A stretch of 37,468 bases of DNA from the NCBI GenBank assembly GCA_946484195.1, contig CAMLSW010000008.1:1-37468 (forward strand), given 5' to 3'. The notes beneath the pieces were generated by a model. The model had not been told where the DNA came from, made no database searches, and worked only from the letters and a program-made list of their open reading frames with translations. This document shows positions 36,621 to 37,468 of this stretch, one piece after another; the stretch's first letter is position 1, and the number at the start of each line of letters is the position of its first letter. This DNA is from an uncultured Clostridia bacterium. Lineage in GTDB: Bacteria; Bacillota; Clostridia; Christensenellales; UBA1242. The position numbers were made by a program, and so were the translations under genes.

Positions 36621-36782
36621 ATGAGTAAACAATGGAAACCTGGTGAACAAGCACCAAAATCTGGTAACTATTCTTGCTATGATGAGAACGGCAGATGCGG
36701 TGGAAGTTGCTACCTTGAAAAAGGACAACGTTTCCCTGCAACACAACATTCAGGCTCTCATTATGAAATGGACGAAGAATAG
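36621..36782 (+). CDS. YjzC-like small protein (53 aa), absent from ORF track
   Basis: GTGGAGGTTGAAA-ATG; MSKQWKPGEQAPKSGNYSCYDENGRCGGSCYLEKGQRFPATQHSGSHYEMDEE*; xxKPGxxAPxxGxY...KGxRFPxT pattern. Confidence 0.8.
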   Translation: MSKQWKPGEQAPKSGNYSCYDENGRCGGSCYLEKGQRFPATQHSGSHYEMDEE

Positions 36783-36938: not shown

Positions 36939-37118
36939 TTAACTACGTTTCCAATAGTAACTCGAATACTGCCCTGTAAAATTGCTTGCATTGGTGCTAG
37001 GATTTGTTACATCAATAGGTGTTCCGCTTGTTGCAGTTGATGATGTAGTTACATACCAACCTGTAGTGTTTGGGAAGGTTACGGAGGTTAAGTTCGTACA
37101 GTGGCTAAATACATTATA
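36939..37118 (-). pseudogene. C-terminal remnant of a BspA-like leucine-rich-repeat (LRR_5) surface protein
   Basis: Minus strand YNVFSHCTNLTSVTFPNTTGWYVTTSSTATSGTPIDVTNPSTNASNFTGQYSSYYWKRS*; in-frame TAG immediately upstream, no start codon. Confidence 0.7.
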
Positions 37119-37157: not shown

Positions 37158-37468
37158 GCAAACTAAGTTTGGGTGTCGTTGACACCTCTTTCCTTTAACA
37201 AACTCGGGCGGACCAAGATAAAACACAATAACAGACAAACTCAACGACACTTGTCCAGCATAATGCTGGTGCAAACTAAGTTTGTTGGCGAACGTAAGGC
37301 TCGAAACCTAAATTTGACGGACCAAGGCAAAATAAAATTACAAGAAAACTTAACGATAATGATGCAAACTAAGTTTGGGTGTCGTTGACACCTTTTCCTT
37401 TAACAAACTCGGGCGGACCAAGGCAAAATAAAATTACAAGAAAACTTAACGATAATGATGCAAACTAA
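37158..37468. repeat. Mosaic repeat array of palindromic modules with a 96-bp direct repeat, continuing past window end
   Basis: 54 nt at 37319-37372 identical to 37415-37468; gcaaactaagtttg at 37158, 37271, 37364; ggtgtcgttgacacc at 37172 and 37378; ccagcataatgctgg at 37255. Confidence 0.9.

Follow-up and report, generated by a model that had tools for sequence, protein, structure and literature searches.

The window, a stretch of 37,468 nucleotides at the end of contig C8 of the 1.34-Mb, 88-contig Clostridia metagenome-assembled genome (MAG) G000, closes with an array of small hairpins that probably belongs to a REP-like mosaic repeat family specific to its genus, growing and reshuffling by recombination or template switching and encroaching on the ends of neighboring genes. 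The family is dispersed, keeps to a single orientation, has covarying stems and boundaries at gene ends, appears at sites that are empty in relatives, and turns over its modules between sister species. A preliminary description of this DNA had named recombination-mediated or retro/REP-like amplification of shuffled modules among its suggestions, and recombination-driven, REP-like amplification is still the best reading once the arrays of G000 and its sister species G032 (CALVNW01, "uncultured Clostridia bacterium BRZ_ES__bin107") are printed side by side and turn out to be permutations of a few modules. The same description held that the layout fits none of the standard repeat classes, which is not supported, since mosaic palindromic repeats such as BIME, NIME, and BOX are built in this way.

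The features of the array are collected in Table 1. H1 (GCAAACTAAGTTTG) has its only 3 copies in 37 kb within the array, against 0.01 expected, and no shuffle contains 3 or more. H1, H2, and H3 lie where they had been placed, and TCAACGACAC (37241-37250) is, as had been pointed out, the reverse complement of GTGTCGTTGA (37174-37183). The piece at 37289-37303 (cgaacgtaaggctcg) is a degraded hairpin of the array type. A protein-coding repeat was considered and rejected, since not all of the unit spacings (60, 96, and 109) are divisible by 3 and the array is not spanned by any ORF of at least 100 aa.

Table 1. The hairpin array at the window edge and the two genes beside it
Feature	Position	Strand	Basis
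YjzC-like small gene, upstream of array site	36621..36782	+	Pfam PF14168, E = 3.4 × 10−6
BspA-like surface-protein gene, 3' remnant (last 58 codons + stop), joined to array head	36939..37115	-	73% identity over 55 aa to C terminus of the C26 surface protein
H1 hairpin, copy 1	37158..37171	+	sequence; shuffle test
H2 hairpin GGTGTCGTTGACACC, then T-rich tail (terminator-like on +)	37172..37186	+	sequence
Linker 1, GGACCAAG...ACGACACTTGT, foot TGT included	37210..37254	+	sequence
H3 hairpin CCAGCATAATGCTGG	37255..37269	+	sequence
H1 hairpin, copy 2	37271..37284	+	sequence; shuffle test
Degraded foot-hairpin CGAACGTAAGGCTCG	37289..37303	+	sequence; like CGAGCGTAAGGCTCG elsewhere in genome
Linker 2, ends in foot GAT	37319..37363	+	99% identity to orthologous G032 site, query 116-220
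H1 hairpin, copy 3	37364..37377	+	sequence; shuffle test
H2 hairpin, copy 2	37378..37392	+	sequence
Linker 3, identical to linker 2, 96 bp further on	37415..37459	+	direct-repeat comparison
Fourth H1, start only; cut by contig end (k = 55 assembly break)	37460..37468	+	terminal k-mer counts

The repeat unit in G000 and G032 consists of a linker of about 43 nt, reading GGACCAAG...ACGATAAT, followed by a foot of 3 nt and a hairpin of 15 nt. Each foot keeps to its own hairpin or hairpins: GAT goes with [G/C]CAAACTAAGTTTG[C/G], GGT with CCAACCTAAGGTTGG, TGT with CCAGCATAATGCTGG, and CGC with CCAGCGTAAGGCTGG or CAAGCGTAAGGCTTG. Together with its T-rich tail, the second hairpin, GGTGTCGTTGACACC, resembles a terminator when read on the array strand. 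Units run head to tail in one direction, and mixed orientation is found in none of 34 arrays having at least 3 modules each. The stems vary in a pairwise manner, with C-G, A-T, and G-C at positions 2/14, A-T and G-C at 4/12, and C-G and A-T at 5/11. Among 32 distinct hairpins selected by the foot as the sole criterion, stem pairing is 80% versus 53% when shuffled, with 0 of 10,000 shuffles reaching 80%, a figure to be read with the small number of hairpin types in mind and with the kinship among sequences that inflates such tests. RNA folding of the whole array is no better than that of shuffles on either strand (z = -0.68 and -0.38), hence the conserved part is the small hairpin. An Rfam search of the window gives RNase P as the sole family, the array reaching no gathering score, and with these folding scores the earlier suggestion of an array of compact structured RNAs is not borne out. 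Two further elements are seen beside arrays at G032 L052/L058 and G000 L026, namely a repeated module TTTCTAAGGGGTATTTT...GCCTTTGGCAAC...CGCGCCTATCGGCGAT and a recurrent hairpin GGGTATCCAAAA-TTTA-TTTTGGATACCC.

A genome-wide search for the modules finds the family dispersed across both genome and genus. The window array as a query has 45 matches in G000 and 23 in one other species, G032, and a census combining fetched stretches with searches counts at least 18 arrays in G000 and 16 in G032, both genomes being MAGs and G000 80% complete. The string SCAAACTAAGTTTGS occurs in 25 of 101 genus genomes with up to 41 copies, where a reversed-pattern control has zero matches; in 2 of the 25 (G005 and G026) the match lies apparently within a coding gene. 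In those two species GCAAACTAAGTTTGC occupies the same position in the apparent coding gene (L091:1501-1515 in G005 and L104:1501-1515 in G026), either by coincidence or as an intragenic hairpin. Other species of the genus have different linkers, for example AGAGCGGAAATAAAG...CGGACAGT, and stems such as CGAACATTTGGTTCG and CGAGCATCTGGCTCG, and keep the order of linker, foot, and 15-nt hairpin. Searches of phage and plasmid records gave no match to the array.

The sister species G000 and G032, at a median identity of 98.4% over 56 conserved genes, nevertheless carry different arrays at shared sites. Writing L for the linker, A or a for H1, B for CCAACCTAAGGTTGG, C for H3, D for CCAGCGTAAGGCTGG, E and F for other hairpins, and T for H2, the array downstream of sigG reads TLALLBATLDTLBLCDALAL in G000 versus LA.DTLALAL in G032, and the array downstream of plsY reads LCFA versus E.LBATLATLCFA. 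The feoB array is identical in both, and the units proximal to the host gene tend to be common to the two genomes. The G032 counterpart of the window site consists of just a single linker and a single full hairpin, flanked by the YjzC-like gene and a tRNA-Ser gene, whereas the window has the truncated surface gene (58 codons) plus at least 3 units.

The array tails lie against conserved genes encoded by the opposite strand, facing their 3' ends and sometimes cutting into them. Over the fetched loci, which come from many species of the genus, 38 of 79 tail hairpins have an opposite-strand stop codon within 400 nt, and the distance from tail to stop is exactly 0 nt in 8 of the 38 and -10 nt in 5. 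The uniform-chance value for the 8 zeros is 5 × 10−14, a few of the ORFs concerned being short. In G029, each of two distinct tRNA-Leu genes has a hairpin directly abutting its CCA end, at 0 nt. One gene has a lone hairpin beside its stop codon in both G095 (L080:1501-1515) and G012 (L081:1501-1515), with flanks that have diverged between these species, a pattern that may point to the hairpin being under constraint.

In secA, gltX, tilS, murE, and a U32 peptidase gene, the stop codon itself comes from the hairpin. SecA ends in CCGQT-stop in both G000 and G032, with the TAG inside the hairpin; the ending is CCWDKDH... in most relatives examined, and CCGK-stop, CCGKDK-stop, or CCGRNQ-stop in a few. 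GltX has changed from ..HKF-stop in array-free relatives to ..HNQP-stop in G000 and G032, and the U32 peptidase likewise from ..VEKK-stop to ..RTQP-stop, while MurE of G032 (..NEQT-stop) and TilS of G000 (..KTQT-stop) also take their stop from a hairpin. In array-free relatives, the GltX, U32, and MurE orthologs have normal ends, often followed by an intrinsic terminator. Behind secA, array-free G007 and G018 have what we take, on recognition of the proteins, to be a HicB-like gene and then genes of the secE-nusG-rplK-rplA region, and in G000 and G032 an array plus a surface-protein gene is inserted ahead of the HicB-like gene. Arrays have been gained at sites that are empty in relatives.

To account for these boundaries, we propose that arrays would grow and reshuffle via recombination or template switching among many near-identical modules, and would repeatedly overwrite adjacent intergenic DNA until selection halts them at the last tolerated base, that being a stop codon, a tRNA CCA, or a point a few codons inside a gene where the hairpin carries TAG. 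Gene-end arrays occupy the places of intrinsic terminators in relatives and, on this reading, may act as mRNA 3'-end hairpins. Encroachment limited by selection would explain the 0-nt, the -10-nt, and the tRNA-CCA classes together; the breakpoints it refers to are deduced from assembled MAGs, whose contigs break inside arrays, and no read-level donor-recipient event was seen. Two other routes could also give exact abutment: an insertion mechanism recognizing the 3' ends of genes, and selection favoring a hairpin right at the stop. The second of these belongs to a reading we consider possible though unlikely, that the hairpins are kept for a 3'-end function as mRNA stabilizers, terminators, or regulators close to the stop codon. 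They do sit at stop codons, H2 looks like a terminator on the array strand, and array-free relatives have intrinsic terminators at the array positions. However, H1 has no T tract in the direction of the host gene, abutment on tRNA genes does not fit control of translation, and the sister species differ freely in module content.

Arrays often lie directly upstream of BspA-like surface-protein genes. The surface family, comprising secreted BspA-LRR proteins and others, has a common N-terminus MKSLRxKLF..IGVWAVGE with 33 matches in G000 and 24 in G032, for example L139:7840-9318 (-) and L138:4271-5662 (+), and is present in only 13 of 101 genus genomes. All 5 genomes with at least 6 H1 copies fall among those 13 (hypergeometric 1.6 × 10−5), a statistic that ignores phylogeny and leaves the link phylogenetically confounded. 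Some surface cassettes have been replaced, as identity between G000 and G032 is 49.7% for the secA-site surface protein and 89% for those at the murE and C32 sites. On the encroachment reading, arrays would in addition provide homology for swapping or losing the neighboring surface-protein genes. The surface protein encoded upstream of rpmH (L021:14088-15527, -) matches a G032 paralog at 84% over 167 aa and other paralogs at 45% over the full length, and by that pattern is likely a chimera. There are also 36 promoter-like sites in several species, composed of TTGACA, a poly-G run of 5-9 G, and TAAAAT or TATAAT with spacers of 14-19 nt, which mostly precede genes for BspA-like and other surface proteins (such as L025:3386, L043:1986 (-), L055:6216, L056:3652, L092:1690 (-), L160:1384 (-), and L184:1422) and are candidate slipped-strand phase-variable promoters. 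The most far-reaching picture would be that of a transposase-free, genus-wide hairpin system that inserts itself or encroaches, exact to the base, at the 3' termini of genes (stop codons and tRNA CCA), supplies stops to essential genes, and serves as a platform for swapping phase-variable surface cassettes; taken whole, we regard it as doubtful.

None of the enzymes looked at follows the distribution of the arrays. A REP/REPIN-type system would use a RAYT, a Y1 HUH transposase acting on single-stranded hairpins, which might have been missed or recently lost. The fixed 5' foot, the high copy number, the placement at 3' ends, and the hairpin-supplied stops are all REP traits (PMC3733652, PMC12306157), and Y1 transposases do occur in 12 of the 101 genus genomes. 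Against this, no Y1 is found in G000 (80% complete), G079 (98%, with 22 H1 copies), or G098 (75%, with 39 copies), none of the 8 Y1 loci examined is flanked by array hairpins, and the family lacks both the GTAG tag and inverted pairs. The nearby REP transposase for which the preliminary description proposed a search is not found in G000 or in array-rich G079, and the IS200-type Y1 of G032 (L112, G032:C4:81612-81968) is broken by an internal stop codon and lacks flanking array hairpins. We find a RAYT origin improbable. Reverse transcriptase (PF00078) was set aside as a candidate, being present in 7 of 20 genomes and absent from G032, G098, and G008, and so not linked to the arrays.

Quite improbable as well is insertion targeted precisely to gene 3' termini by a DNA- or RNA-guided enzyme, with the hairpin as the 3' end of the element. 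The 8 exact stop-codon and 2 exact tRNA-CCA junctions are what it would give, and exact junctions include single hairpins outside arrays (G095, G012, and G029), but other junctions lie 10 nt inside genes or at other distances, no common target motif extends beyond the stop or the CCA, and the same two classes of boundary are what arrays encroaching under purifying selection should give.

An integron-like array, attC or CALIN, with surface proteins as its cassettes is very improbable. It shares with our arrays hairpins that adjoin exchangeable genes, the array plus surface gene at the secA site behaves as an exchangeable cassette, and GTTAGGC is present within some hairpins. However, by inspection the major hairpins lack the RYYYAAC and GTTRRRY box pair, and the units are gene-free hairpin chains. 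No integron-specific integrase was identified, PF00589 matches being found everywhere at the family level, not resolved to IntI, and tyrosine recombinases, also rejected as candidate movers, number 1-10 per genome and do not clearly separate array-rich from array-poor genomes.

The last matter is the contig end. The direct repeat reported there keeps its 96-bp spacing, and its length is 55 nt (37318-37372 and 37414-37468) instead of 54. The final 55-mer of the contig is present in two copies and the final 56-mer in one, contig C13 opens with a 55-mer self-repeat of like kind, and C36 contains the 55 bases that end C54. Given the 55-mer and 56-mer counts and the likeness of C13, the 55-nt identity and the run-off are a k = 55 de Bruijn graph break. 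A terminal repeat of exactly 55 nt with the contig ending at that point does favor an assembly artefact, an explanation with next to no probability and refuted for the array by independent arrays within contigs, in two MAGs, and at orthologous sites. The window-edge array is real, and its count of at least 3 units is a lower bound, since the contig breaks at 37468.

Proteobacteria are the main group from which such REP-like mosaics are known, and our literature search found nothing comparable for Clostridia. How such mosaics spread without a transposase, as the CGTC REPs and Neisseria NIMEs notably do, is an open question. In the present case, conserved proteins are 98% identical between two species whose arrays share sites and differ in module order, and close relatives have the sites empty, so that turnover, boundaries, and surface-gene exchange can be read directly. 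The hairpin-supplied stops in secA, gltX, and others show the reach of such repeats into essential genes. Like REP/PU elements and BIMEs of the GTAG superfamily, the array family consists of short intergenic palindromes in many copies per genome, mosaic with other motifs and located at gene 3' ends, often by the stop codon. REP termini can supply TAG stops (PMC3733652), and E. coli REPs no more than 15 nt from stops stall ribosomes, a finding cited in PMC12306157. The array family is set apart from the known REP classes by failing their defining tests of tag, stem length, orientation, and RAYT. It has feet GAT, GGT, TGT, CGC, and CGT in place of the GTAG tag, its units have one orientation (0/34 mixed) whereas BIMEs and REPINs alternate or invert, it is without RAYT or Y1 transposase in G000 and G079 at the completeness given above, and its stems are of 5-6 bp with several covarying types per genome, in a Clostridia host. 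In CGTC REPs the stems are 8-9 bp long and begin with AT pairs, and head-to-head dimers predominate, with none reported for Firmicutes in PMC3733652; the array stems start with C or G, all units are head to tail, and the CGT foot is found in only part of them. Streptococcus BOX elements, boxA-(boxB)n-boxC, vary between strains in the number of middle modules (PMC3049150), and the array family is likewise modular with variable module number, but it has no fixed A and C ends, permutes several hairpin types, and has no sequence relation shown to BOX. Neisseria NIMEs (NIME/dRS3) are short palindromes that cluster between genes as large mosaics, with other repeat families interspersed (PMC3733652), and with them and the CGTC REPs the array family has in common palindromes without a dedicated transposase in mosaic clusters. 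In its workings it resembles the REP/BIME and Neisseria NIME mosaics, probably diversifying by recombination.
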